Source: Micromonospora narathiwatensis
Lineage (GTDB): Bacteria; Actinomycetota; Actinomycetes; Mycobacteriales; Micromonosporaceae
Assembly: GCF_900089605.1 (NCBI RefSeq)
Contig: NZ_LT594324.1
Location: forward strand, 2,294,001-2,358,000
Reading direction: 5' to 3'
DNA: 64,000 nucleotides
Part shown: one piece after another, positions 5,782 to 24,233 of the stretch
How positions within the stretch are numbered: position 1 is the stretch's first letter
How the letters are laid out: each line of letters opens with the position of its first letter
Position numbers and translations under genes: made by a program
Notes under the pieces: model-generated
Seen by the model: the letters and a program-made list of their open reading frames with translations, nothing else
The model's database searches: none
Told to the model about the DNA's origin: nothing

Positions 5782-5966
5782 GGTCTCCTCCTCAGACGGT
5801 GAAGGCCGCCGGTTGCGTCGGCGTCCCTGCCGGTCGCCGGGGCGGGGTCGGGGTCTGACCTCGACGAACGCTGTAGCGGTGAGTATCTACTTGGATCGAT
5901 GCGCCTGCAAGGGGTCGTTCCCGGGCGGCCCGCGGTGGTTAGGGTGTGGGCGGGGGAGGTGCGCCG

Positions 5967-11028: not shown

Positions 11029-11232
11029 CCGGGGAGCGGCTGCCCATCGCCGGGTCGGCGGGTTCTCCACCGGCATGCGGCAACGACTGAGCCTGGCCAC
11101 CGCGAGGATGCCAACCGAACGCGTGCCCGCCGGTCGAACCCCGGTGGGGGACGGGCCGCCCGGGCTACGGTGCGGGTGACGACGGCTTCCGGCGGACGTA
11201 CCGGGCCACGGTGGTGTGGGGGTGGGGCAGCG

Positions 11233-12111
11233 ATGTCGCCAGGGGCGCCGGCGCGGCCGTTGACCGGACGGGTCGCCGTCGTCACCGGAGCCGCGCGCGG
11301 CATCGGCCGGGCGGCGGCCGTGGCGCTCGCCGAAGCCGGCGCGGACGTGGCCGGCCTGGACGTCGCCGGGCCGGTCAGCCCGATCCTCGACTTCCCGCCC
11401 GCCACCCCGGAGGACCTGGCCGAGACCGGCCGGCTGGTCACCGCGGCCGGCGGACGCTGGTCCGGGCACGTCGCCGATCAGCGGGACATCGGTGCCGTCC
11501 GGGCGGTCGCCGAGGCGGTCGAGCGGGACCGGGGCGGTGTCGACGTGCTCTTCGCCAACGCCGGCATCCAGGCGTTCAAGCCGCTGCTGGAGATGGCCGA
11601 CGCGGACTGGCACGACCAGGTCGACGTCAACCTGACCGGCACCGCGAACGTGCTGCGGGTCTTCGCCCCGCTGCTGGTACGCCGCGGCGGCGGGCGGATC
11701 ATCGTGACGTCCTCCACCCAGGGGCAGCACGGCACCCGGAACGGGTCGGCCTACTCGGCGTCGAAGTGGGGGCTGCTCGGGCTGGTGAAGTCGGCCGCGC
11801 TGGAGCTGGGCGGATACGGGATCACCGTGAACGCGGTCATCCCCGGGCTGGTGGACACCACCCTGACCCGGCACGAGGACCGGTACGCGCAGGCGCTCGT
11901 CGAGGGCGGGCGGACGCCGTCCGGTGACCCCGGCGCCGACGAGCGCACCATGGTCGAGATGCTGCGGGCGAGAACCCCCCTGGGGGTGCCCTGGGTGCAG
12001 CCGACCGACGTGGCACCGCTGGTGGTGTTCCTCGCCTCCGACCAGGCGCGGATGGTCAGCGGCACCTCGTTCGCCGCGACCGCCGGGGACAGCGCCCGCG
12101 TCACCGCCTGA
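11233..12111 (+). CDS. SDR family oxidoreductase (canonical)
   Basis: A 292-residue classical short-chain dehydrogenase. The nucleotide-binding motif is TGAARGIG near residue 18, NAG is in FANAGIQ near 110, and the catalytic residues are the Ser of TSSTQG and YSASK near 177. The substrate loop near 205-250 is longer than usual (TRHEDRYAQALVEGG), as in mycofactocin-associated or carveol-type SDRs. GGTGGGG precedes the ATG. Its stop lies six bases from the end of the convergent racemase gene, so it is transcribed separately from the encapsulin operon, although it could supply it. Confidence 0.9.
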   Translation: MSPGAPARPLTGRVAVVTGAARGIGRAAAVALAEAGADVAGLDVAGPVSPILDFPPATPEDLAETGRLVTAAGGRWSGHVADQRDIGAVRAVAEAVERDRGGVDVLFANAGIQAFKPLLEMADADWHDQVDVNLTGTANVLRVFAPLLVRRGGGRIIVTSSTQGQHGTRNGSAYSASKWGLLGLVKSAALELGGYGITVNAVIPGLVDTTLTRHEDRYAQALVEGGRTPSGDPGADERTMVEMLRARTPLGVPWVQPTDVAPLVVFLASDQARMVSGTSFAATAGDSARVTA

Positions 12112-12117
12112 CCACGG

Positions 12118-12810
12118 TCACCGCCCGTACGGGCGGCGGGTGACGCTGGCGTGCAGCATCCGGGTGAGGGTGACGATGTCGAACACCGGCACGCCGAGCC
12201 GGGCCTGGATCCGGTGCGCGAACGGCACCAGGTCGGTGCACTCGATCACCAGCGCGCCCAGGTCCGGATGGGTCCGGGCGAGGGCGTCCACCCGGTCGTC
12301 CACCTCGGCGGCGAGCCGGTCGACGTCGAGCCGGTCGCGGCGTCCCTCCAGCATCACCTCGCGGAACTCCGGCTGGTCGGCCATGCCGGTGACCGCGACC
12401 GGTAGGTCGTGGGCGCCGATCGCGGCGAGGTGCCGGGGGCTCAGGGCCCGCTCGTCGGCGACCAGCAGCCCAACCGTCCGGTCCGTCATGCGGTGCACCA
12501 TCGGCAGCTGGATCAGGCTGGAGGACCACAGCGGCACGTCGACCGCGGCGGCCAGTTCGGCCTGGAAGAGCACGAGGAAGCCGCACGCCCCGGTGATGCC
12601 GGCGACGCCGGCCGCCTGGAGGTCCCGGGCGGCGGTGACGAACGGTTCCAGCAGGGTCGGGTCGGCCTCGCGGACCAGCCGTCGCGGGGTGGCGCCCTCG
12701 ACCACCCGGTAGACGACGGGGAAGTCGAAGGTCGCCGGGTTGCGGATGTGTCCGGGGATCTTGTCGAAGCTGGTCTGGAGGCAGAGCACCCCGATCGCGG
12801 CGTCGCTCAC
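12118..12810 (-). CDS. Asp/Glu/hydantoin racemase-family protein
   Basis: A 230-residue protein of the aspartate/glutamate racemase superfamily. These enzymes invert the alpha carbon of an amino acid using two cysteines; candidates here are the Cys of ITGACGFL (near 75) and of VIECTDLVPF (near 190). The GTG start overlaps the stop of the upstream oxidoreductase (GTGA), so the two are translationally coupled. As the last gene of the encapsulin operon, paired with a D-amino-acid oxidoreductase, it suggests handling of D-amino acids. It could also be a decarboxylase or isomerase of the same fold. Confidence 0.8.
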   Translation of the reverse strand: MSDAAIGVLCLQTSFDKIPGHIRNPATFDFPVVYRVVEGATPRRLVREADPTLLEPFVTAARDLQAAGVAGITGACGFLVLFQAELAAAVDVPLWSSSLIQLPMVHRMTDRTVGLLVADERALSPRHLAAIGAHDLPVAVTGMADQPEFREVMLEGRRDRLDVDRLAAEVDDRVDALARTHPDLGALVIECTDLVPFAHRIQARLGVPVFDIVTLTRMLHASVTRRPYGR

Positions 12811-14090
12811 CGGCGTCCCCTTCCGAAGCGGTCCAGGGCGAACGTCTCCAGCGGCAGGTCGGGATCCTTGCCGTCGAGGAGCTGGGCGAGCAGCCGCCCG
12901 CCGGCCGGCGCCAGCCCCATCCCGATGTGGCCGTGCCCGGTCGCCACGCTGACGTTGCGGTACGTCCCGGCCCGGCCGATCAGGGGCAGGCTGTCCGGGG
13001 TGCAGGGGCGCAACCCGCTCCACACGTGCAGCCGCCGGTCGGTGTCCAGCCCCGGCAGGTACGACCGCACGGTGCGCAGGATCCCGTCGACCCGGCGCGG
13101 CGACACGGAGTTGTCGAGGCCGGACAGTTCCAGGGTGCCGCCGACCCGGATCCGGTCGCCCAGTGGCATGACCGCCACCTTGCCCTCGCTGAGCAGCATC
13201 GGCAGCCTGGGGGTGCCCGGTCCGGCCGGGACGGTGACCGTGTAGCCCTTGGCGGGTTGCAGCGTCAGCCCGACGCCGAGCGTACGGGCGCAGGCCGCGG
13301 ACCACACCCCGGCGGCGATCACCACCTCGGTCGGGTGCAGGTCGCCACGGCTGGTCCGGACGGCACGTACCCGCCGGCCGGTCACCTCGAAGTCGCGGAC
13401 CTCGGTGCCGGTGACGATCTCCACGCCCCGCTCGCGCAGCAACCGGGCGAACCCGAGCAGGAACGCGGGGATGCGTAGGGCGGCGCCCTCCTCGTTGAGC
13501 AGCGCCCCGGCGATGGCGAAGTCCACCCCGGGTTCCAGCCGGGCCAGTTCCGCCCGGTCGAGTTCGCGCAGCGGCACGCCCCGCTCCACGGCGGCGGGGA
13601 TGCCGCGACGGGCCTGCGCGTACCCCTGCTCGGTCCTGCAGGCGAGCACCATGCCGCGGGCGGTGAGGGTGTCGGCGAGGTCACCGTCGGCGCAGACCTC
13701 GCGGAGGATGGCCAGGCTGCGCTGCTTGAGCGCGAGCAGCACCTCGAACCCGGCGCGGGCGTGCCGTTCGGTGCAGTGCCGCCGGAAGTGCCACAGCCAG
13801 GCCAGCAGCCCGGCGTCCCGGCGCGGCCGGACGTGGAACGGGCTCTCCGGGTCGAGCAGCCAGCGCAACCCCTTCGCCGCCACGCCCGGCTCCGCGAGGG
13901 GCGCGGAGCCCTGGGTGCCGACGAAGCCGGTGTTCCCGGCCGAGCAGGCGGCCGGGTCGCCGACCTCGTGCCGGTCGACCACGGTGACGGTGTGCCCGGC
14001 CTGGCGCAGGAACCAGGCGCAGAACAGACCGACGACGCCCGCGCCGATGACCAGGACGTCGGGGTCGTGCCGGGCGGGCGTCGTCGCCAT
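12807..14090 (-). CDS. FAD-dependent D-amino-acid dehydrogenase-like oxidoreductase (DadA-type)
   Basis: A 427-residue DAO-fold flavoenzyme. The dinucleotide motif VIGAGVVGLFCAWFL lies at residues 15-29 and the FAD-contact motif CSAGNTGFV near 50. A C-terminal nucleotide segment, HGHIGMGLAPAGGRL, lies near 390. It resembles DadA, which oxidises D-amino acids to 2-oxo acids with electrons passed to quinone. It lies 12 bases after the encapsulin gene and overlaps the racemase gene, so it belongs to the same operon. The likely job is oxidising a D- or N-alkyl amino acid made in this pathway. Confidence 0.87.
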   Translation of the reverse strand: MATTPARHDPDVLVIGAGVVGLFCAWFLRQAGHTVTVVDRHEVGDPAACSAGNTGFVGTQGSAPLAEPGVAAKGLRWLLDPESPFHVRPRRDAGLLAWLWHFRRHCTERHARAGFEVLLALKQRSLAILREVCADGDLADTLTARGMVLACRTEQGYAQARRGIPAAVERGVPLRELDRAELARLEPGVDFAIAGALLNEEGAALRIPAFLLGFARLLRERGVEIVTGTEVRDFEVTGRRVRAVRTSRGDLHPTEVVIAAGVWSAACARTLGVGLTLQPAKGYTVTVPAGPGTPRLPMLLSEGKVAVMPLGDRIRVGGTLELSGLDNSVSPRRVDGILRTVRSYLPGLDTDRRLHVWSGLRPCTPDSLPLIGRAGTYRNVSVATGHGHIGMGLAPAGGRLLAQLLDGKDPDLPLETFALDRFGRGRR

Positions 14091-14102
14091 CGCTGCCTCC
14101 GG

Positions 14103-14978
14103 TCAGAGGGTGACGACGAAGAAACAGGTGGGCAGGTTGACCACGACCCGCTCCCAGATCTCGGCGCGCAGCGCCACGCCGGGCTCGGCGAAGGTGCCGG
14201 GCGGCGGCTCGGCGAACCCGATGGTGGACCTTCCGGCGTCGAAGAGCAGCGCGCCGTGGCCGAAGTCCCCGACGATCGCGGTGCCCGGGTCGACCAGCCG
14301 GGTACGCACGATGAAGACGCCGTTCTCCTCGACGTCGCGCATCAGCTGCCCGGAACCGAGCAGCCGGTAGTAGTCGGCCGGGTTGATGATCAGCCCGTCG
14401 GCGGTGCTGCCCATCTGCTCGACCTCGTTGCAGGCGGCCAGGATGGTGGACGCGAACGGCCCCGGGTCGGTGAGCCGGCCGATGTCCGGCATGTTCAGCA
14501 GCCCGCCCTCGCCGCGCAGGATGGTGTGGTTCTCGGCGGTGGCCAGGCGGACCACGAGGCGGTAGTTGATGAACTGCTCGAAGCTGGTCGGGTCGTCCCA
14601 GAGGGTGTCCGGCACCTGTACCCAGGCGGTGGTGGTGAGCAGCGGCGGGACGGGGGAGCGGTGGAAGTGGTTGGCCGCCTCCCGCCGCAGGTCCGCGCCG
14701 TCGACGGCGGGGTCGCCGGGCCGGGGCGGGCTCTCGTGCCAGTAGAACTCCTGCGGGTCCCGGGAGAGGTCCACCACCTTGAGCATGTTCCGGGACGGGT
14801 AGCGGGGCTTGCGCCGGGAACTGGTCAGCGAGTCGGTGATGGTGACGTCGTAGTCGACGCGGGTGTCGAAGCCGTCCTTGGCGAACGCGTCGACGAAGAG
14901 TCCACCGGGCGACATCTGGGTCTTCCGTTCGGCGACCACCTCGGCGATGGTCCGCTTGACGGCGTCGGTGCGCTGCAT
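14103..14978 (-). CDS. HK97-fold encapsulin-like shell protein (family 3-like)
   Basis: A 291-residue protein with the layout of an HK97-type capsid/encapsulin protomer. It has a short N-terminal helix (1-22), a long E-loop-like segment rich in Arg/Pro (53-90), a spine-helix segment SFEQFINYRLVVRLATAEN (132-150) and a loop GEGGLLNMPDI (157-166). The C-terminal capsid signature PGTAIVGDFGHGALLFDAG (231-249) is followed by EIWERVVVNLPTCFFVVTL (273-291). No portal, protease, terminase or tail gene is near, so this is not a prophage. Encapsulins of family 3 are known inside biosynthetic clusters with sulfotransferase and SDR genes, exactly the neighbours found here. Cage formation is inferred. 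Confidence 0.78.
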   Translation of the reverse strand: MQRTDAVKRTIAEVVAERKTQMSPGGLFVDAFAKDGFDTRVDYDVTITDSLTSSRRKPRYPSRNMLKVVDLSRDPQEFYWHESPPRPGDPAVDGADLRREAANHFHRSPVPPLLTTTAWVQVPDTLWDDPTSFEQFINYRLVVRLATAENHTILRGEGGLLNMPDIGRLTDPGPFASTILAACNEVEQMGSTADGLIINPADYYRLLGSGQLMRDVEENGVFIVRTRLVDPGTAIVGDFGHGALLFDAGRSTIGFAEPPPGTFAEPGVALRAEIWERVVVNLPTCFFVVTL

Positions 14979-14997
14979 GGTCCGGTATCCCCTTCCG

Positions 14998-15837
14998 TCA
15001 GGCCGGCCGGCGGGCGACGAACATGCCCCAGCCGAACTCGCCCCGGTCGATCGCGGCCTGGATCTCGTCGCAGGAGTCGGCGAAGTTGAGGATCCAGCTC
15101 CGCGCCGCCTCGTCGTCGGTGCCGGCGGCCCGCTCCCGGGCGGTGCGCCCGAGCACCCGGTATGTCTGCCGGATGTGCGCGTCGAGGCTGCGCGCCGTGA
15201 CGTCGACGAAGCCGGCCGCCTCGAGGGCCCGGCGGTAGCCGTCGAGGGAGTAGCCGCCGTTCCAGCGCACCCGGTCGTAGACGTGCCGGCGGGCCGCGTC
15301 GCCGATCTCCGGTTTCGGCTGCAGGAAGTCGGAGAAGGCCAGCACCCCGCCGGGGGCGAGCACCCGGAACATCTCGGCGTGACTGCGGGGCTTCTCCGGC
15401 ACCAGGAACAGCGCGTCCTGGCTGACCACGTGGGTGAAGGCGCCATCGGCGTACGGCAGGGCGGTGGCCGAGCCGTGTCGGAACGCCAGGCGCGGTCCGC
15501 CGCCGCGCTCGGCGAGCTTGCCCTGGGCGAAGCGGACCCGCTCGATGCTCAGGTCCAGGCCCTCGCCGCGGCACCCGGTCCGCTCGGCGAGGCGGAGCAG
15601 GAAATTGCCGCAGCCGCAGCCGACGTCGAGGATGTTCGCGGTGGCGTCGATGCCGGCATCGGCGGCCAGGATGTCGGAGGTACGGTCGGCCGCCGCGTGG
15701 TAGTCGGTGTCCGCGTCGTCGGCGAAGTAGCCGGTGTGCAGCACGCCCTCGCTGTTCCAGAAACTGAGGTACGTCTGCGTGGTCCGGTCGAAGAACTCGG
15801 AGACGTCCCGCTCGGTGAACTGGCTGGTCGTGGCCAT
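14998..15837 (-). CDS. class I SAM-dependent methyltransferase (sarcosine/dimethylglycine MT-like)
   Basis: A 279-residue methyltransferase. The SAM-binding motif ILDVGCGCGNFL is at residues 69-80, the acidic loop GEGLDLSIERV near 92 and the post-motif VVSQDALFLVPEK near 136. The layout and the HTGYF segment near 34 resemble enzymes that methylate glycine derivatives or small amines, so N-methylation of an amino group is a reasonable guess. It starts at ATG 15837 behind AAGGAGTG and lies 19 bases before the encapsulin gene. Confidence 0.87.
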   Translation of the reverse strand: MATTSQFTERDVSEFFDRTTQTYLSFWNSEGVLHTGYFADDADTDYHAAADRTSDILAADAGIDATANILDVGCGCGNFLLRLAERTGCRGEGLDLSIERVRFAQGKLAERGGGPRLAFRHGSATALPYADGAFTHVVSQDALFLVPEKPRSHAEMFRVLAPGGVLAFSDFLQPKPEIGDAARRHVYDRVRWNGGYSLDGYRRALEAAGFVDVTARSLDAHIRQTYRVLGRTARERAAGTDDEAARSWILNFADSCDEIQAAIDRGEFGWGMFVARRPA

Positions 15838-15873
15838 GGGTGCACTCCTTCGTGCGACGGTGGGTCGGCGGGG

Positions 15874-16704
15874 TCAGGCGTAGGTGTCCGTGCGGACCCC
15901 GGTGAGGTGCGGCAGGTCGGGCCCGGTGACGCCGGCGCCGCCGTCGATCAGGTGCACCCCGGCGGTCACGTACGACGCCCGCTCGCTGGCCAGGAAGGCG
16001 GCCACGGCGGCGACCTCCTCGGGGCGGGCCAGCCGGCCGAGCGCGCTGTGGTGTCCCATGGCGCGCAACCGGGCCTCCACGTCGCCGTCCTCGCCGGCCA
16101 GCCGGGCCGCGGCCCGCTCCATCGGCGGGGTGCGTACGCCACCGGGGGCGAGCACGTTGACGGTGATGCCGTCGCGGCCGACGTCGACGGCGAGCCCCTG
16201 GGCGAAGCGGACCAGCGCCGCCCGGGTGATCCCGGAGAGCACCAGCGGCGGGATCGGTACGCAGGCGGTCTCGGAGGCGACGAGCAGCAGCCGCCCCCAA
16301 CCGGCGGCGCGCAGGTGCGGCAGCGCGGCCAGGGACAGCCCGACCGCGGGCAGCAGCACCCGGTCCACGGCGGCCCGGTAGTCGTCCGGCCCGAACGCGG
16401 TGGCGGTGCCGATCGGCGGGCTGCCGCCGCCGACCAGCAGCACGTGCAGGCCGCCGAGATCGGCGGCGACCCGGTCGATCCAGCGCGCCGCGGCGGCGGT
16501 GTCGGTCAGGTCGACCCCGGCGACGCTGACCCGGCCGGTGGCGACCCGCGCGAGTTCGCGTTCGGCGTCGGCGAGCCGGTCCGGGTCGCGGCCGCAGACC
16601 GCCACGTGCGCGCCCTCGGCGGCGAACTCCTTCGCACAGGCCAGCCCGATGCCGCTGGTGCCGCCCGCGACGACCGCCACCCGTCCCTTGAGTCCGAGAT
16701 CCAC
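15874..16704 (-). CDS. SDR-fold protein with non-canonical active site
   Basis: A 276-residue Rossmann protein. The cofactor motif GGTSGIG is intact at residues 14-20. The NNAG stretch is replaced by VGGGSPP (91-97), and the YxxxK catalytic pair is replaced by S157-G-I-T-R161, although the Ser of ASE (144) remains. SDR relatives with this S..R pattern are known, but without Tyr and Lys normal hydride chemistry is doubtful. It may bind NAD(P)H for another reaction or act structurally. The GTG start is set by GGGAGG seven bases upstream. Confidence 0.82.
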   Translation of the reverse strand: MDLGLKGRVAVVAGGTSGIGLACAKEFAAEGAHVAVCGRDPDRLADAERELARVATGRVSVAGVDLTDTAAAARWIDRVAADLGGLHVLLVGGGSPPIGTATAFGPDDYRAAVDRVLLPAVGLSLAALPHLRAAGWGRLLLVASETACVPIPPLVLSGITRAALVRFAQGLAVDVGRDGITVNVLAPGGVRTPPMERAAARLAGEDGDVEARLRAMGHHSALGRLARPEEVAAVAAFLASERASYVTAGVHLIDGGAGVTGPDLPHLTGVRTDTYA

Positions 16705-16708
16705 GTCG

Positions 16709-17674
16709 CTACCTCCCCGTCCCGGCCGGTGTGCCGTCGTCCTGTCGTGGGCCGGCGCCGGGCGGCGCGTCCCGGTAGCCGTAGCGGCCGAACAGCGGCC
16801 AGGCCAGCGCCGTGGCGGCGAACCGCTGGCCACGGGTCAGGGTGCCCCGCCAGGCGTCGTCGGAGTCCCGGATGCGGGTCGGGCCGGTACGGAACCGGTC
16901 CGGGTTGCCGGTCACGGTGTGATTGGGGCGCAGTGCGACGGTGCGGTCGCGGACCGGGTTGCCGGCCGGGTCGGCGTCGACGAACCGGAGCAGCGCGTCG
17001 ACGGTGCCGGCCGGGTCGGCGGTGAACTCCTCGTAGCGCAGGAACATCGACCGCTGCGGGTGCCGGCGGGTGATGGCCGTCGAGGCGAGGTTGAAGCCGT
17101 GCCAGTACCCGGTGCTGCGCGCCGCCGACATGGCGTAGACGTACTCCTTCGGCTCCCGCCAGGAGTGCGCCACCGCCCGGGGATCGCGCACCAGGTGCAG
17201 CCAGTACGCGGTGACGCCGGGAACCTGCGGCAGCAGGGCCGCCTCGCCGGGGATCTTGGTGCTGTCCACGATCACCCGAGCGCCGGTCCGCCCGGCGACG
17301 CCCCGGTAGACCGCGCCCATCAGCGCCGCGTGCGCCCGGATCTCCTCGTCGTACGCGCCCCGGCGCAGCACCCGCCAGGTGTGCCGGGTGCGTACCCGGG
17401 TGCGTTGGCGCCGGATGACGGCGGCGGCGTGCGCGTCCAGCGAGCCGTCCGGCGGCAGGCCGATGCGCAGGATCTCGGACCAGAGCGGGCAGCGGGTCAG
17501 CGGGCTGCCGCAGCCGCAGCGGTCGTTCACGCCCCGGCCGGTGGCGTTCTTCCACAGGAAGTGCAGCTCGCCGACGTGCAGGAAGCCGGGCACCTCGCCG
17601 AGGACGTTGCCGATGATGGTGCTGCCGTTGCGGCACCAGCCCGTGACACTGAGGACAGTCAACCGCTCGCTCAT
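16709..17674 (-). CDS. PAPS-dependent sulfotransferase
   Basis: A 321-residue sulfotransferase. The 5'-phosphosulfate loop is GWCRNGSTIIGNVLGE (12-27) and the 3'-phosphate motif is LVRDPRAVAHS (161-171). A Cys cluster CGCGSPLTRC (53-62) may bind a metal or form disulfides and is common in bacterial tyrosylprotein/carbohydrate-type sulfotransferases. The C-terminal 25 residues are Gly/Pro/Asp-rich and look unfolded; such a tail could dock into a shell, but this is speculation. Its ATG overlaps the MFS gene stop, and the SDR follows after 4 bases. Confidence 0.87.
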   Translation of the reverse strand: MSERLTVLSVTGWCRNGSTIIGNVLGEVPGFLHVGELHFLWKNATGRGVNDRCGCGSPLTRCPLWSEILRIGLPPDGSLDAHAAAVIRRQRTRVRTRHTWRVLRRGAYDEEIRAHAALMGAVYRGVAGRTGARVIVDSTKIPGEAALLPQVPGVTAYWLHLVRDPRAVAHSWREPKEYVYAMSAARSTGYWHGFNLASTAITRRHPQRSMFLRYEEFTADPAGTVDALLRFVDADPAGNPVRDRTVALRPNHTVTGNPDRFRTGPTRIRDSDDAWRGTLTRGQRFAATALAWPLFGRYGYRDAPPGAGPRQDDGTPAGTGR

Positions 17675-18855
17675 GCGACCACCTCGCTACGCTCGGCGGC
17701 CGCGTGAGGCTCCAACCGGCCGATGCGCAGCGCCATCACCGCCGCCACGGCCGCGCAGGCCGCGCCGGCGGCGAAGACCGCCGGGTAGCCGAGGCCGGCG
17801 GCGACCAGGCCGGTGACCGGCCCCCACACCGCCAGGCCGAGATCCCAGAACGAGGTGTACGCCCCGATGGCCGCGCCCTGCCGGGCCGGGTCGGCGCGGT
17901 TCATCACCATCAGCGCCAGCGACGGGTGCAGCAGGGAGAACCCGATCCCCATGACGATGCTGCCGGCCACGGCGATCGGGAGGTTCGGCGCGACGGCGAT
18001 GACCAGCAGGCCGAACGCCTCGCCGACGCCGCACCAGGCGGCCACCCGCCGGGGGCCGAGCCGGTCGGGCAGGTGGCCGATGACCAGGCGGGTGCCGGCG
18101 TAGACGGCGCTGAAGCAGCTCAGCACCAGCACGCCGGATCCGATGCCCCGGGCGTCCAGGTGCAGCACGACGAACGCGGCAAGGCCGGCGTACCCGGCGG
18201 CACCGAAGGCGAGCGCGACGCCGGGTGCCAGCGCGGGCCGCAGCAGCAGCCCGCCGCCCCGGGACGGGGGCACGGTCCGGGCCGGCGCCGGTACGAGAGC
18301 GACCAGGGCGGCGGCGAGCAGCGGCGCGGCTGCGGCGAGCGCCCACACCGCCGGGTAGCCGAACTGCCCGACGGTGGCGCCGAGGAAGGTGCCGGCGGAG
18401 ATCCCGCCCCACATGCTGACCCCGTACAGGCCGATGAGTTGGCCGCGCCGGTGGTGGGGCGCGAGGTGGACGGTCCACACCGCTCCGGCGGTGAACAGCG
18501 CGGCCTCGCCGGTGCCGAGCAGCAGCCGGACCGTCACCAGCGCGGGCACGCCCAGAGGGGCCAGGTAGAGCAGGCCGCCGGTGGCCACCACGAGCGCGCC
18601 GACCAGCATGACCGCGCGGTGGCCGTACCGGTCGGCGAGGGAACCGGCGACCGGGCGGACGAGCAGCGCGGTCACCGCGGTCACGGTGACCACCAGCCCG
18701 ACGACGAGGTCCCCGCTGTGGTGGCGTTCGCGCAGGAAGGCGGGGAGCACGGGGATCACCGCGGTGAGGCCGACGTAGCCGGCGAAGAGGCCGCCGAAGA
18801 TGCCGACCAGCGCCAGCCGGGGCAGGGTGGCCTCGCGGGTGTCCGCGGCGGTCAC
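17671..18855 (-). CDS. MFS exporter
   Basis: A 394-residue major facilitator protein with 12 hydrophobic segments. The motif between segments 2 and 3 is GSLADRYGHR, the usual signature of drug:H+ antiporters. The GTG start shares bases with the stop of the aminotransferase gene, and its own stop overlaps the sulfotransferase start, so it is embedded in the encapsulin operon. The likely role is export of the pathway product, giving self-resistance or secretion. Confidence 0.88.
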   Translation of the reverse strand: MTAADTREATLPRLALVGIFGGLFAGYVGLTAVIPVLPAFLRERHHSGDLVVGLVVTVTAVTALLVRPVAGSLADRYGHRAVMLVGALVVATGGLLYLAPLGVPALVTVRLLLGTGEAALFTAGAVWTVHLAPHHRRGQLIGLYGVSMWGGISAGTFLGATVGQFGYPAVWALAAAAPLLAAALVALVPAPARTVPPSRGGGLLLRPALAPGVALAFGAAGYAGLAAFVVLHLDARGIGSGVLVLSCFSAVYAGTRLVIGHLPDRLGPRRVAAWCGVGEAFGLLVIAVAPNLPIAVAGSIVMGIGFSLLHPSLALMVMNRADPARQGAAIGAYTSFWDLGLAVWGPVTGLVAAGLGYPAVFAAGAACAAVAAVMALRIGRLEPHAAAERSEVVA

Positions 18856-20165
18856 GGCCGGGCCAGCGCGACGCCGTGGCCGGCGGCGACCTTGCGTACC
18901 GCCCGGATCAGGTCGTCGCAGTCGTCGAGGGTGAGGTTGGACGACAGCGGCACGTCGACGGTCTCGGTCAGCAGCCGCGCGGTGCGCGGCAGCATGGCCC
19001 GGATCTCCCCGGGGTCGGCCGTGTGGTAGAGGAACCGCCAGTTCCAGAAGGCCCGGACGTTGAGGTCGTCGTCGGCGCCGATGTTGCGGGCGTCGAAGCC
19101 CTCGGCCCGCAGCGCGCGGGCGAACCAGCCGGCGTCGCCGTCGGGCACCCGGAACACGAACGCCTCCCCGAGGTACGCCCCGGGCGCGACCGGCCGGCGG
19201 ATCGCGATGCCGGGCAGGTCGGCCAGGGCGGTGGCGACGTGGGCGTAGTTGCGGTGGAACAGGGCCAGCCGCTGGGGCAGCCGGGTCAGTTCGGCGCGCA
19301 GCAGGGCGGCGCGGATCTCGTCCATGCGCAGGCTGAGCAGGGGCAGGTCGAGGCCGCTGAGCGGCGGTTCGGCGCCGGCGAAGTGCCGGCGCAGCCGGCC
19401 CTCGTACGCCCCGGACAGGGCGACCGCCCGGGCGAACAGGGTGCTGTCGTCGGTGACCAGGAAGCCGCCCTCGCCGCAGTTGAGCGCCTTGTCGGACTGG
19501 GTGCTGAACGCCCCGGCGGTGCCGAAGGTGCCCAGCTTGCGGCCGTTGAGTTCCGCGCCGAGGGCGGGTACGGCGTCCTCGATCAGCGGTACCCGCATCT
19601 CGGCGGCGAACGCCGCGAGGGCCTCGACGTCGGCGGCGAACCCGCGCATGTGCACCGCCACGATGCCCCGGATGTCGGGATGCCACCGGCGGCGCAGGTC
19701 GTCCAGGTCCATCCGCAGGTCGTCGTCGACCTCGATCAGAAATGGTCGGCAGCCGGCCATGACAATGGCGCTGGGGGTGGCGACGAAAGTGAATCCCGGG
19801 CAAGCGACCAATGATCCGGCCGGGACCCCGGCGCCCATGACGGACAGCGCCAGGGCGGCGGTGCCGCTGGAGACGGCGAGGGCATGCCGGGTGCCGAAAT
19901 AGCGGCACAACTCGTCCTCGAACCGGCCGCATTCGGTTTCGTTCTGCGGACGGTGGTCGTAACGGAAGTAGAGGTGACTTCGGACAGCTCGGAAAGCGGC
20001 CTGCTCGTCGTCGGGGTGTATGAAGACCGCGCCCTTGTCGTAGGTGGGCCAGGGCGCGCGGCGGACCGGTACGCCCCCGTGGAGGGCGAGCTGTCTGTCC
20101 AGATCAGCGCCGTGTGACACCGGCATTGGCCGGGTCGGCGCGGGAGCTTCGTTGTTCCCGTTCAC
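18852..20165 (-). CDS. DegT/DnrJ/EryC1/StrS-type PLP aminotransferase
   Basis: A 437-residue fold-type I PLP enzyme. The cofactor phosphate motif SSGTAALALS is near residue 99, the PLP-stacking segment IEDAVPALGAE near 195 and the Schiff-base lysine is K226 in STQSDKALNCGEGG. This family transaminates keto groups of sugars or cyclitols, and some members make amino acids. The N-terminal 30 residues are Pro-rich and probably flexible. GAGGAG lies seven bases before the GTG start. It is the first gene of the encapsulin operon, so the substrate may be an amino-sugar, cyclitol or keto acid. Confidence 0.88.
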   Translation of the reverse strand: MNGNNEAPAPTRPMPVSHGADLDRQLALHGGVPVRRAPWPTYDKGAVFIHPDDEQAAFRAVRSHLYFRYDHRPQNETECGRFEDELCRYFGTRHALAVSSGTAALALSVMGAGVPAGSLVACPGFTFVATPSAIVMAGCRPFLIEVDDDLRMDLDDLRRRWHPDIRGIVAVHMRGFAADVEALAAFAAEMRVPLIEDAVPALGAELNGRKLGTFGTAGAFSTQSDKALNCGEGGFLVTDDSTLFARAVALSGAYEGRLRRHFAGAEPPLSGLDLPLLSLRMDEIRAALLRAELTRLPQRLALFHRNYAHVATALADLPGIAIRRPVAPGAYLGEAFVFRVPDGDAGWFARALRAEGFDARNIGADDDLNVRAFWNWRFLYHTADPGEIRAMLPRTARLLTETVDVPLSSNLTLDDCDDLIRAVRKVAAGHGVALARP

Positions 20166-20418: not shown

Positions 20419-21084
20419 TTACGCAGACCGGAAACGGACGTCGCGGGCGGCCCGGACGCGCCGCGCGACCCGTGCGCCCGGGCTGGGTCGGGCGGTGCGG
20501 GACATGGTGTGCTCCACCGCCGTCGCCAACGCCCGGGCCACCGACGACGGGTCCCGGGCGTCGCAGGCGGTCAGGGGTACGCCGACGGGCAGCGCGAGCG
20601 CCGCGCGGACCTCGTCGAGCGGGTGGTGCGCCACCCCGTCGAAGCGGTTCACGCAGACCGCGAACGGCACCTCGCTGTCCCGCGTGAAGTAGTTGACCGC
20701 CGGGAACGAGGCGGCCAAATCGCGGGCGTCCGCGAGTACCAGCGTGCCGATGGCGCCCCGGCACAGGTCGTCCCGGATCGGGTCGAGCCGGGGCTGGCCG
20801 GGCGCGCCGAACAGGTACAGCACGAGGTCGGGGCCGATGGTCAGCCGTCCGACGTCCAGCGCAAGGGTGGTGGTCCTCTCGTCCAACCGGTCGGCGGTCT
20901 CGCCGGCTGCGGTCGTCCACGCCTCGGCGTTGATCGGAGGGATCTCCGAGACGGACCGTACGCAGGTGGTCTTGCCGACACCGAAGCCACCCGCGATGAC
21001 GATCTTCGCCGAGGTCTGCGGCGGGGTGTCAGGCAAGCTCGCGGAGGCCATCGCGCAGTCTCTCCAGAAGGCGGAAGTCGACAT
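20419..21084 (-). CDS. cvnD: conservon GTPase CvnD
   Basis: A 221-residue small GTP-binding protein of the Ras-like/MglA type found in actinobacterial conservons. The P-loop is GGFGVGKTT near residue 33, the switch region contains LYLFGAPGQPRLD near 90 and the specificity motif is NRFD near 146. In conservons CvnD acts with the kinase-like CvnA, the roadblock CvnB and the DUF742 protein CvnC as a membrane-linked switch. It starts within the end of cvnC (56-base overlap if ATG 21084 is used; an ATG at 21051 is a later in-frame choice). The Arg-rich C-terminus could help membrane contact. Confidence 0.9.
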   Translation of the reverse strand: MSTSAFWRDCAMASASLPDTPPQTSAKIVIAGGFGVGKTTCVRSVSEIPPINAEAWTTAAGETADRLDERTTTLALDVGRLTIGPDLVLYLFGAPGQPRLDPIRDDLCRGAIGTLVLADARDLAASFPAVNYFTRDSEVPFAVCVNRFDGVAHHPLDEVRAALALPVGVPLTACDARDPSSVARALATAVEHTMSRTARPSPGARVARRVRAARDVRFRSA

Positions 21085-21364
21085 TGTGGTGGTCGGCGTG
21101 GATCAGCAGCCGGTCGGTGGAGGCGAGGTCGTCCACGACCACCCGGGTCACCCCCAGGGACATCCGGCAGACCGCGGAGAGTTCGGCCACCGAGCGCGCC
21201 GCCCCGCGGGCCTGCTCGTACAGCGTCCTGGCCTCGGGGAGCAGACCCGAGGCGAAGACGGCGTCGTAGTACGGCACCGAGACCAGGGTGTGCACCAGCA
21301 GCGGCGCCCGGGTGCGGGTCCGGCCGGTGGTCAGCACGTACGGCCGTACCTTCCAGTAGGTCAT
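21029..21364 (-). CDS. cvnC: conservon DUF742 protein CvnC
   Basis: A 111-residue winged-helix DUF742 protein (VRPYVLTTGRTRT near residue 6; the HTH-like core SVAELSAVCRMSLGVTRVVVDDL near 58 is given here in outline). Its ATG sits in TGATG, where the ancestral cvnB stop overlapped it. The transposon left end lies only 32 bases upstream, so cvnC and cvnD are now separated from cvnA by about 1.3 kb of foreign DNA, which probably breaks coupling. The family function is regulatory and poorly known. Confidence 0.85.
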   Translation of the reverse strand: MTYWKVRPYVLTTGRTRTRAPLLVHTLVSVPYYDAVFASGLLPEARTLYEQARGAARSVAELSAVCRMSLGVTRVVVDDLASTDRLLIHADHHNVDFRLLERLRDGLRELA

Positions 21365-21396
21365 CAGAGTCGCGGCGTGGAAACCTGGCTGTTTAC

Positions 21397-22726
21397 GGCC
21401 GGGAGGAAACGCCGCTCCCTCCCCTCAATATTTGTCTTACATGGACGGTCGTTAGGGTGTGGGGCGTGGGTGAGGTGGTGAAGCGGGCGTACAAATACCG
21501 CTTCTACCCGTCGCCTGAACAGGCGGAGCTGCTGAATCGCACGTTCGGGTGTGTGCGCGTGGTGTACAACCGGGCGTTGGATGCTCGTACGCGGGCGCGG
21601 TCGGTTGACGGTCAGCACACTACGTACGGGCAGTCGTCCGCCTGGTTGACCGATTGGAAACGCACCGATGAGTTGGCGTTTCTGAACGGGGTGTCGTCGG
21701 TGCCGTTGCAGCAGACGTTGCGGCATCTGCAGGCCGGGTTCACGGCGTTCTGGGACAAGCGGGCCCGGTATCCGAGGTTCAAGTCCAAGCGCAAGTCGCG
21801 GGCGTCGGCGGAGTTCACCCGCTCCGCGTTCTGCTGGCGTAACGGTCAGCGCACCCTGGCCAAGATGAACCCCCCGCTGAACATCGTCTGGTCCCGGCCA
21901 CTGCCCGAGGGTGCGCAGCCGTCCACGGTCACCGTGTCCCGCGACCCTGCCGGCCGGTGGTTCGTCTCCATCCTGATCGAGGACCCGACCGGGGCGCCGC
22001 TGCCGCCGGTCACGACGGAGGTGGGCGTGGACGCGGGGATCACCAGCCTGCTCACCCTGTCCCACCCGATCCCCGGGATGAGCGACGAACAGGGCAAGGT
22101 CACCAACCCGCGTTACGGACAGACCGACCAGCGCAAGCTCGCCAAGGCGTAGCGGAACCTGGCTCGCAAACAGAAGGACTCCGCGAACCGGGCCAAGGCC
22201 CGGCTCACGGTGGCCCGGATTCATGCCCGTATCGCCGACCGGCGGCGGGACCACCTGCACAAGCTGACCACTCGACTCGTCCGCGAGAACCAAACGGTCG
22301 TGATCGAGGACCTCAGCGTGCGCAACATGCTCCGTAACCGGCGTCTGGCTCGTGTCATCTCCGACGCGGCCTGGTCCCAGTTCCGGACGATGCTGGAGTA
22401 CAAGGCCCGGTGGTACGGCCGTGAGGTGATACCGGTCGACCGGTGGTATCCGTCGTCCAAAACCTGCTTCACGTGCGGACAGGTCAACAACACTCTCGCC
22501 CTCAACGACCGCGTCTGGACGTGCCTCGGCTGCGGGGCTGAGCATGACCGGGACATCAACGCTGCCAAGAACATTCTCGCCGCCGGGCTGGTGGAGAGGT
22601 AAAACGCCTGCGGAGCTGAGGTAAGACCTCAAGGGAAACCTCCCGGAAAGGCAGTCGGCGATGAAACAGGAAACCCCGTGGGCGACCGTGGGAATCCCGG
22701 TCCCTTCAGGGCCGAGAGGATGTCAA
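21397..22726 (+). mobile_element. IS608-like, tnpB-only insertion (1,330 bp) in cvnB
   Basis: The left end follows TTAC (21393-21396) and the right end finishes in TCAA (22723-22726), the target and right-cleavage tetranucleotides known for IS608. Each end has a hairpin: GGGAGG/CTCCC at 21401-21419 and CGGTCCC/GGGCCG at 22699-22715. There are no terminal inverted repeats or target duplication, as expected for this group. Joining 21396 to 22727 restores the cvnB frame up to a stop that overlaps the cvnC start, which confirms both ends. No tnpA gene is present, so movement needs a transposase in trans. Confidence 0.85.
21475..22602 (+). pseudogene. tnpB: TnpB RNA-guided nuclease with in-frame amber codon
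   Basis: About 376 codons, beginning VKRAYKYRFYPSPEQ. RuvC residues are all present: D186 (GVDAGI), E278 (IEDLS) and D360 (HDRDIN). The zinc finger CFTCG...CLGCG is intact. A TAG at 22150-22152 (codon 226) replaces what is probably CAG in a KLAKAQRNLARKQK-like stretch. It splits RuvC-I from the rest, so no full nuclease is made unless the stop is suppressed. The start could also be GTG 21466. The rest of the reading frame shows no decay, so the mutation is recent or an error. Confidence 0.88.
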
Positions 22727-22742
22727 CCGGTACGAGACGACC
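22603..22742 (+). ncRNA. predicted omegaRNA (reRNA) scaffold and guide
   Basis: The 124 bases between the tnpB stop and the right end contain several hairpin-forming blocks (GAGGTAAGACCTC; GGGAAACCTCCC; the terminal CGGTCCC/GGGCCG). In TnpB systems this region is the guide-RNA scaffold and the guide is the flanking DNA. Here the guide would begin CCGGTACGAGACGACC at 22727, which is cvnB sequence. The 5' end of the RNA normally lies inside tnpB and is not fixed here. Confidence 0.55.
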
Positions 22743-23067
22743 CGCAGGTCGCAGCCGGGGGCGGTGGCCACCGCCGACCCGCATGAACAGCAGGTGCCTG
22801 CGGGCAGCCGGACGGTCAGGTACTCGGAGGCGCCGAGGTCCAGCAGCGCGGCGCCGTGGTCGGCCATGCTCAACAGCCCGCGGTCAGCGCGGGAAGCCGG
22901 TCGCCGGCGTCCCGGCCGACGCTGTCGGACGCGGCGAGCTGCAGACCGTCCAGCGACATCAGGATCGCGTGGGTGACCCCGGGAACGTCCTCGGCGAACT
23001 GGCGGACCAGCCAGGCGCAGCCGGGCAGCCCCTGGCCGGTGCCGTCGCCCGGGTGTGCGTGGGTCAC
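22706..23067 (-). pseudogene. cvnB: conservon roadblock protein CvnB, frameshifted and interrupted
   Basis: Residues 1-66 read normally from GTG 23067 (LVRQFAEDVPGVTHAILMSL is the roadblock start), then hit TGA near 22872. One missing base there restores GLLSMADHGAALLDLGASEY. Another base missing after LPAG and a short deletion after MRVGG are needed before VATAPGCDLRVVSYR. The transposon then replaces the last 11 codons. Roadblock proteins control the partner GTPase, so the conservon switch is probably broken. Single-base gaps next to GGC runs could also be sequencing errors. Confidence 0.8.
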
Positions 23068-24233
23068 TGTCGTCCTTCGGCGGTGGTGTTCCGGGCGTCG
23101 CCGACACCAGCGGCGAACGCCGCCGTCTCGTCCGGCCACGCCTCGGGCGGGGATCCGGCTCCGGCGTCGGCCGGCGGGCGCGGCATCGCGGCGGCCTCGT
23201 CGCGGACCGTGCGCCGCACGCGTGTGGGCAGGCCGGGCTCCGGCTGCTGCTGCTCGGTGGCCGGAGTGCCCAGCGCGGCCAGGCGTACGGTCGGCGAGTG
23301 GGCGCTGCCGCGTCGCGCGGCCGTCGGCGTACTTCGTCGGTCGGTCGCGCCGGCGGGCCGGGCCGGCGACGGCGGCGCGGAGTCGGGGCCCGGCTCGGCC
23401 GGGATCTCGCAGAGCAGCGCGCCCGGGACCAGCACGGTCGCCGTGGTGCCGCCCGAGGGCCGGTTGGTGAGGGTGACCCGCAGTTGGTGGGCGACGGCCA
23501 GGTGGGCGACGACGGCGAGCCCGAGGTGGGCGGTCGGGTCGAGGGTGACCGGGCTGGCCGGCTGGCCGTCGAGCAGCGCGTTGAGCTGGGTGAGCTGGTC
23601 GGGATGGAGACCCACGCCGGCGTCCTCGATCCGCAGCAGGACGCCGCCGTCCTCGGTGATGAACGCGGAGACGAGCACCGGGGCGGCGGGCGGGGAGAAC
23701 CGGCTGGCGTTGTCCAGCAGTTCGGTGAGCACCCGGATCAGGTCGTCGGCGGCGAACTCGACCACCGCCAGCTCCACCACGTGTCCCACCCGGACGCGGG
23801 GGTAGTGCTCGACGGCCGAGGTGGCCGCCCGGATCACGTCGACCAGGGTGACTGTCCGCGGGTCGGGGTCCTCGACCCGGCGGTCCAGCAGGACCTGCAG
23901 GTTCTCCGCGTGCCGGCGGATGCGGGTGTTCGCGTGGTCGATCCGGTAGAGCCGTTCCAGCCGGTCCGGGTCCTGCTCGTCGGCCTCGACGGCCGCCAGG
24001 TGCGAGCCCACCTGGTAGGCCAGGGCGAGGACCCGCAGCGCGAACTGCTCGCAGATCGCCGGCCAGGGGTCGGGCGCGGGTTCCTCGGGTGGCGGGGGCG
24101 GGGGCTGGGGTGTCCCTTGTGGCGCGACGGACCAATGGGCGACCGTCGGGTCCAACCAGCGCGCCGCTCGTTGCCGCCAGCCGGCTCGGCGTCGATCCGC
24201 CGACGACACTGGCACGATGTCGGTGCTTCTCAC
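23064..24233 (-). CDS. cvnA: conservon histidine-kinase-like ATPase CvnA
   Basis: A 389-residue CvnA-type protein. It has a helical dimer region (about 60-130), a GHKL ATPase core with N-box ELLDNASRFSPP near 190 and G1 box IEDAGVGLHPD near 222, and a long Pro/Ala-rich tail from 290. The usual sensor and transmembrane half is absent, as in short conservon kinases. A Pro run (PPPPPPEE) near residue 45 is a linker. The stop overlaps the cvnB start. The GTG at 24233 has no clear ribosome binding site, so the true start may lie some codons later. Confidence 0.85.
   Translation of the reverse strand: MRSTDIVPVSSADRRRAGWRQRAARWLDPTVAHWSVAPQGTPQPPPPPPEEPAPDPWPAICEQFALRVLALAYQVGSHLAAVEADEQDPDRLERLYRIDHANTRIRRHAENLQVLLDRRVEDPDPRTVTLVDVIRAATSAVEHYPRVRVGHVVELAVVEFAADDLIRVLTELLDNASRFSPPAAPVLVSAFITEDGGVLLRIEDAGVGLHPDQLTQLNALLDGQPASPVTLDPTAHLGLAVVAHLAVAHQLRVTLTNRPSGGTTATVLVPGALLCEIPAEPGPDSAPPSPARPAGATDRRSTPTAARRGSAHSPTVRLAALGTPATEQQQPEPGLPTRVRRTVRDEAAAMPRPPADAGAGSPPEAWPDETAAFAAGVGDARNTTAEGRQ

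Follow-up and report, generated by a model that had tools for sequence, protein, structure and literature searches.

A conserved family 3 encapsulin operon in Micromonospora narathiwatensis and its candidate cargo enzyme

Introduction

What does a family 3 encapsulin enclose, and what is made by the enzymes encoded around it? The question is raised by eight minus-strand genes at positions 12118-20165 of a 64,000-nucleotide stretch of the Micromonospora narathiwatensis genome (contig NZ_LT594324.1, positions 2,294,001 to 2,358,000), hereafter the window. An earlier note on this DNA had described a compact operon in which a 291-residue HK97-type shell protein is set among biosynthetic genes, and the open reading frames of the window bear out the eight genes with their coordinates, overlaps and gaps. 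We read the locus as a family 3 ('natural product') encapsulin operon that is complete in itself and whose cage would hold part of the pathway by taking up one or more of its enzymes. Taken as a whole, we consider the case for this reading evenly balanced; its individual parts differ in strength and are graded where they are discussed.

The shell protein

The shell gene (14103-14978, minus strand) encodes a protein of 291 amino acids that contains PGTAIVGDFGHGALLFDAG and scores 318.4 bits against the NCBIfam family 3 encapsulin model NF041188 (encap_f3), for which the cut-off is 180. Close homologues already carry the name 'family 3 encapsulin nanocompartment shell protein' in public databases (NCBI). 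At E ≤1e-3 the sole Pfam match was PF05065 (Phage_capsid; 24.1 bits, slightly below the cut-off of 24.2), with no match to PF04454 (Linocin_M18), the family 1 encapsulin domain. The HK97 fold expected of a family 3 member was found in two ways. A profile search against the PDB returned HK97 capsids as the nearest solved relatives (HK97 gp5, 2gp1, E 2.8e-9), and Foldseek, run with a shell model of low confidence, placed the HK97 prohead 8fqk at the top (E 3.5e-6). No family 3 encapsulin structure was found in the PDB with the shell sequence. The surroundings are likewise those of the family, namely a biosynthetic cluster free of phage genes across the eight operon genes and ten scanned neighbours in the window. 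The family 3 assignment made in the earlier note and the HK97 relation on which it rested are thus upheld. We regard it as virtually certain that 14103-14978 encodes a family 3 encapsulin shell, and the protein very probably assembles into a cage.

The near-match to the phage capsid family and the HK97 capsids among solved structures would also fit a prophage remnant, or a capsid without compartment function that has come to lie in the operon by chance. Against this, the position of the gene in the operon is constant across Micromonospora, Nocardia, Nonomuraea, Streptosporangium and metagenome-assembled genomes (MAGs) of other groups, and among the eight proteins the shell ranks first in conservation in 25 of 27 loci (a ranking that leaves out the three-gene locus L027), with a mean identity across loci of 82% against 70-78% for the other operon proteins. 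No phage structural or packaging gene was found among the other seven operon proteins and the ten scanned neighbours. On these grounds the prophage explanation was rejected as highly improbable. Compared with seven Micromonospora shells of equal length, the shell gene shows a dN/dS (the ratio of nonsynonymous to synonymous substitution rates) of 0.17-0.33.

The operon as a conserved unit

Profile searches against Pfam and NCBIfam assigned the remaining genes, all on the minus strand. The order of transcription begins with a DegT/DnrJ/EryC1-type aminotransferase (18852-20165; PF01041, 191 bits; start at GTG 20165 or ATG 20126), a major facilitator superfamily (MFS) transporter that is probably an exporter (17671-18855; PF07690, 153.6 bits) and a 321-residue sulfotransferase of the type that uses 3'-phosphoadenosine 5'-phosphosulfate (PAPS) (16709-17674; PF13469, PF00685). 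These are followed by a 276-residue protein of the short-chain dehydrogenase/reductase (SDR) fold with a GTG start, in which the catalytic Tyr/Lys dyad is replaced (15874-16704; PF13561/PF00106), and an accessory S-adenosylmethionine (SAM) methyltransferase (14998-15837; PF13649). Downstream of the shell lie a flavin adenine dinucleotide (FAD)-dependent enzyme resembling D-amino-acid dehydrogenase and glycine oxidase (DadA-like; 12807-14090; PF01266, 226 bits) and a protein of the Asp/Glu racemase superfamily (12118-12810; PF01177, 33.1 bits; NF005679, 264 bits, cut-off 231). Neighbouring genes overlap by four bases at the aminotransferase/MFS, MFS/sulfotransferase and DadA-like/racemase junctions; the other gaps are 4 bases (sulfotransferase/SDR), 36 (SDR/methyltransferase), 19 (methyltransferase/shell) and 12 (shell/DadA-like). 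The enzymes named in the earlier note are therefore present and, as it had stated, none of the eight genes was assigned as a polyketide synthase (PKS) or nonribosomal peptide synthetase (NRPS).

The gene set recurs elsewhere. Gene content was read by tblastn at 1e-10 in 28 shell loci, with up to 10 kb taken on either side, and all eight genes occur in the same order in 17 of them. In one further locus (L026) the set is complete, with the aminotransferase in another place; the methyltransferase alone is absent from five (L015, L021, L023, L024, L025) and the MFS gene alone from one (L014). The other four (L001, L020, L027, L028) sit on contigs that end early, L027 also being without the DadA gene between shell and racemase. 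Methylation, which the earlier note had counted among the modifications, is accordingly not part of the core, since the five loci without the methyltransferase are otherwise intact. Some close Micromonospora loci, L002-L004 and L008 among them, also share genes outside the eight; in more distant loci the surrounding genes differ, and the flanks in the window have no match in any of the other loci compared. Because the flanks are not shared across distant loci, 12118-20165 is the conserved unit. The identical content and order in 17 loci are not due to chance, and the eight genes almost certainly form one functional unit. Locus L026 comes from a MAG labelled Chloroflexi, in which the moved aminotransferase is also inverted; provided that the binning of the MAG is correct, it suggests transfer between phyla.

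Family 3 loci in the genus and beyond

Across 160 genomes of the genus, NF041188 scored above its cut-off in 40, and their shells divide into type A, to which the window operon belongs (23 genomes), type B (11) and type C (6). Among the type A shells, 14 were typed by sequence and nine by co-located enzymes; of the 17 others, 16 were typed by locus sequence (10 B, 6 C) and the last, in genome G427, from locus L094. The sulfotransferase search gave matches in 71 of the 160 genomes, 23 of them at E <1e-140, and the racemase search in 24, 23 of them at E <1e-110. The close orthologues of both enzymes and the type A shell occur in an identical set of 23 genomes, all within the 40. The shell, sulfotransferase and racemase genes share a single contig in every case, inside a span of about 6 kb. 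As the same 23 genomes carry the shell type and both enzymes, neither is seen without the other: none of the 160 genomes has close enzyme orthologues without the shell, or a type A shell without the enzymes. The type A operon is a discrete unit, present all-or-none in the genus. Its small size, sharp borders and lack of any giant synthase mean that the operon could be transferred complete to a laboratory host, and make it a clean, minimal setting in which to ask what family 3 cages hold.

To set type A beside its relatives, we read nine of the 17 non-A loci of the genus (L086-L094) and seven loci (L095-L101) from a class-wide search in which nine of 394 genomes exceeded the NF041188 cut-off; three of these sixteen (L097, L099, L100) proved to be type A, L099 repeating L017. 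A maximum-likelihood tree of 44 shell rows, of which 43 differ, separates types A, B and C into three groups (support 100/99, 96/92 and 100/100). A sulfotransferase is encoded in all sixteen loci, including each of the 13 of types B and C, so that this enzyme class is common to the three shell types read.

Type B (L086-L089, L094, L101) has a family 3 shell on average 43% identical to that of type A, and its sulfotransferase belongs to another Pfam family (PF19798). An MFS gene that clusters with that of type A is present in four of the six loci (L086-L089) and a DAO-type flavoenzyme in five. Unlike type A, these loci encode an NRPS with a terminal reductase (loading and reductive release) and an aldo/keto reductase, and no SDR of the type A set was found in them. 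The type C shell (L090-L093, L095, L096, L098) is more distant, at a mean of 28% identity, whereas its sulfotransferase (mean 43% identical) and SDR (mean 45% identical) resemble those of type A. Type C further differs in a LysX-type ligase, a LysY-type reductase, a kinase/deacylase and a split transketolase, which outline a carrier-bound amino acid route; a LysW-type carrier was called in six of the seven loci and CysD/CysN in three, the labels for carrier, reductase, kinase and CysD/CysN being read from the sequences. The type C loci read contained nothing from the type A aminotransferase, racemase or DadA clusters.

The operon belongs to the kind of system published in 2021 by Andreas and Giessen (PMC8346489). 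The family 3 systems described there share with it the shell family, the pairing of sulfotransferase and SDR, a biosynthetic setting and a mostly actinobacterial distribution; they differ in NRPS, PKS and amino-group carrier protein genes, which are absent from type A. The type A operon may be among the six family 3 classes set out there, and the main text mentions neither Micromonospora nor racemases. Within the literature searched, family 3 encapsulins go by that name in PMC8346489 and in PMC8229669. No paper joining an encapsulin with Micromonospora was found in a search outside which lay most subscription papers and bioRxiv preprints not in PubMed Central. Nor did the literature searched hold an established cargo or role for a family 3 encapsulin, and the 2021 paper states that the role of the encapsulin in its one studied cluster is unknown (PMC8346489).

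An SDR-fold enzyme with an altered active site

The SDR-fold protein departs from its family at the catalytic site. Where classical SDRs carry YxxxK, it has SxxxR (S157-R161; 16222-16236, minus strand); in the alignment the window protein reads SGITR, sorbose reductase (3ai3) YNVTK and APE0912 (2z1n) SNIMR. The whole SDR domain aligns with both solved proteins, the Ser/Arg site being shared with APE0912 and the canonical YxxxK kept in sorbose reductase. Residues S144, S157 and R161 are invariant in all 28 operon SDRs, as are the dinucleotide-binding glycines G14, G18 and G20, so that the protein has the glycine-rich motif of classical SDR oxidoreductases but not their catalytic YxxxK. Among the best-scoring 120 of 3478 homologues, every one has SGxxR and none has YxxxK at that distance from a serine. 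SxxxR is likewise present in all 35 SDRs called in the loci (29 type A, 6 type C). The AlphaFold2 model has a mean predicted local distance difference test (pLDDT) score of 86.1, and its close structural matches include a microcompartment-associated aminopropanol/aminoacetone dehydrogenase (6ci8, 6ci9), another compartment-linked SDR, which acts on an amino ketone.

Because the catalytic Tyr and Lys are absent, simple ketone reduction by this protein appears doubtful, and the replaced site complicates the published idea of SDR action followed by sulfation. Halohydrin dehalogenases are SDR-fold proteins in which Lys is replaced by Arg and which catalyse a ring-forming displacement. The analogy is a loose one, because those enzymes retain the Tyr and have lost the glycine motif.

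Cargo and docking

Some enzyme of the operon is likely to be cargo. The earlier note had favoured the C-terminal tail of the sulfotransferase or the N-terminus of the aminotransferase as docking peptides, and conservation supports neither. The sulfotransferases of type A differ in both the length and the sequence of the tail that follows ...RYGY. The conserved part of the aminotransferase N-terminus lies inside the region (query 19-320) aligned to the known 2-deoxy-scyllo-inosose aminotransferase 5w70, and is therefore not an add-on but part of a subfamily already known.

A better candidate is the C-terminal tail of the SDR (residues 261-276; 15877-15924, minus strand), identified in the alignment of homologues. 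About 20 residues extend beyond the last SDR strand, comprising a GPxLPHL block, some four variable residues and a terminal [RK]DT[YF]x. After removal of sequences more than 85% identical, 148 homologues were reduced to 54 SDRs, of which 45 carry [DN]T[YF] within the last eight residues, preceded by a variable stretch, and nine do not. The 16-residue tail is missing from sorbose reductase and from 2z1n, which ends at its DGGA strand, and from all six type C SDRs shown, which end near DGGNTRG. A search of 61 relatives, with at most 41 candidates scored per genome, found SDRs at E ≤1e-45 in 11 (eight type A, three type C), and each of the 11 also has a family 3 shell.

Two observations weigh against docking through this tail. 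Four Nocardia SDRs in the alignment lack the motif while the shell is kept, and in the model the end of the tail is of moderate confidence, the last six residues, without regular structure, averaging pLDDT 72. In favour of docking, the linker (residues 256-263) falls below pLDDT 50. The model is compatible with a flexible peptide and equally with a tail packed against the SDR itself. By sequence conservation the SDR tail nonetheless appears a better docking candidate than the two it replaces, weakened as it is by Nocardia and by the model, and we place the SDR itself being a cargo a little short of even.

The competing explanation is that the tail serves the SDR oligomer, as part of its structure or active site (a subunit interface or a substrate lid), and that the cargo is the sulfotransferase or several enzymes together. 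SDR C-terminal segments often contact neighbouring subunits, and the moderate scores of the last six residues would suit such packing. In addition, the sulfotransferase is the sole enzyme class in all three shell types read and adjoins the shell gene in types B and C. The tail is, however, absent from 2z1n, which among solved structures is the closest relative to have this SxxxR site, and type C SDRs keep the site pattern without it, while the type A sulfotransferase tail is unconserved. We consider this explanation a real possibility, less probable than SDR cargo.

The Nocardia loci L015, L021, L023 and L024, together with L100, whose shell groups with the Nocardia shells, lack the methyltransferase and have SDRs without the DTY tail. 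At 12 positions the four Nocardia shells share fixed residues that hardly occur in other shells, and five of these positions are within residues 1-13. Residue 13 is Q in the 11 Nocardia-named shells among 120 homologues and E or D in most others. The shell N-terminus was considered as the partner of the tail on account of these lineage-specific changes and counted weak, because L028 retains the SDR tail without the N-terminal helix of the shell, residue 9 also varies outside Nocardia, and Nocardia is one clade. The structure model of the shell is too weak for placing anything.

Proposed pathway and chemistry

The remaining enzymes are consistent with a small-molecule pathway. The aminotransferase, with D212-K213 invariant (numbering of the 424-residue form), has 8-amino-3,8-dideoxy-octulosonate transaminase (5k8b) as its nearest solved relative and also matched 5w70; its closest relatives are enzymes for the amination of keto sugars and cyclitols. 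The DadA-like flavoenzyme (NF001933, 291 bits, under the cut-off of 383) has D-amino-acid dehydrogenase and glycine oxidase (4ysh) as its closest relatives. In the racemase, C76 and C191 are identical wherever aligned in 27 type A rows, and two conserved cysteines are expected of a two-base racemase. Neither this protein (at E ≤0.1) nor the sulfotransferase (at E ≤1) has a PDB relative. The methyltransferase matches 3bus (E 4e-24), MitM (E 7e-23), which we take to be the mitomycin aziridine N-methyltransferase, and D-glucose O-methyltransferase (6uv6, E 1.4e-22) with similar scores, and no decision on the product was drawn from it.

In the pathway that we propose, the shell would self-assemble into a cage and take up at least one pathway enzyme, most plausibly the SDR-fold protein through its C-terminal tail and possibly the sulfotransferase with it. 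The racemase and FAD enzyme would process an amino acid, the aminotransferase would place an amine on a keto intermediate, and the sulfotransferase would transfer sulfate from PAPS; the methyltransferase, where present, would cap the product and the MFS protein export it. The cage could thereby shield the cytoplasm from a reactive carbonyl or sulfate-ester intermediate. The identities of the racemase, flavoenzyme, aminotransferase and sulfotransferase point to a small, amine-bearing, sulfated molecule, and it is fairly likely that a sulfate ester on such an amine-bearing molecule is present in the product or occurs on the way to it.

The sulfate might instead be a leaving group, displaced by a vicinal amine to give a strained N-heterocycle (Wenker-type), with the cage confining an alkylating intermediate. 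A precedent exists in azinomycin biosynthesis, where DADH is sulphated and its amine then displaces the sulfate to form an aziridine (PMC9570651). Several features of the other shell types suit this scheme. The LysW-type carrier, LysX-type ligase, reductase, kinase/deacylase and split transketolase of type C match the azinomycin route, to which type C adds a sulfotransferase, an SDR and, in three loci, CysN/CysD; the type B NRPS with its terminal reductase, aldo/keto reductase and sulfotransferase suggests a course from amino acid to amino alcohol to sulfate. By gene content, both types lead to an amino or imino alcohol open to sulfation. The only studied family 3 cluster makes chloromyxamides, peptides with 6-chloromethyl-5-methoxypipecolic acid (PMC8346489), whose seven-carbon skeleton would, in our analysis, fit chloride opening of such an N-heterocycle. 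Chloromyxamide is also named in PMC10435759, PMC10619280 and PMC13269418, which shed no further light on it. The resemblance of the methyltransferase to MitM points the same way, but 3bus and D-glucose O-methyltransferase match it as well.

Direct support for this chemistry from the type A operon itself is slight. It has no carrier protein, LysX-type ligase, transketolase or NRPS, the first three being, unlike in type C, absent from its eight genes. No ring-forming enzyme was identified, the eight genes all being assigned to other families and the sequences of AziU3/U2 and Vzb10/11 not having been compared, and in the literature searched the one paper pairing 'encapsulin' with 'aziridine' was on vanadium catalysts. 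Sulfate displacement is an unlikely alternative. Less likely still is a wider proposal, in which the cages of types A, B and C all serve one chemistry: a vicinal amino alcohol, reached by three unrelated routes, would be sulfated and the sulfate displaced to give an electrophilic N-heterocycle in the shell. The Tyr-less SDR, kept in types A and C and with its tail specific to type A, would then be a non-redox partner and shell-docked cargo, not a ketone reductase. The operon supplies a docking candidate, an enzyme whose active site is ill-suited to the simplest published scheme, and a proposed common chemistry that can be tested across shell types.

Neighbouring genes

Scans of the window against Rfam and for tRNA genes gave no matches. 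Upstream of the operon, a row of histidine-kinase-like, DUF742 and GTPase genes (20419-24233), presumably conservon-like, encloses a gene of TnpB/IS605 type that occupies two separate frames (21457-22152 and 22210-22602). At the other end, a second SDR on the plus strand (11170-12111) converges on the operon six bases from its end; this one has a canonical YSASK site and a long insertion that, we presume, resembles those of mycofactocin-coupled SDRs. Further away, the plus-strand gene at 5946-8762 encodes a large fusion of an FAD oxidase with an iron-sulfur protein (PF02913, PF01565, 4Fe-4S).

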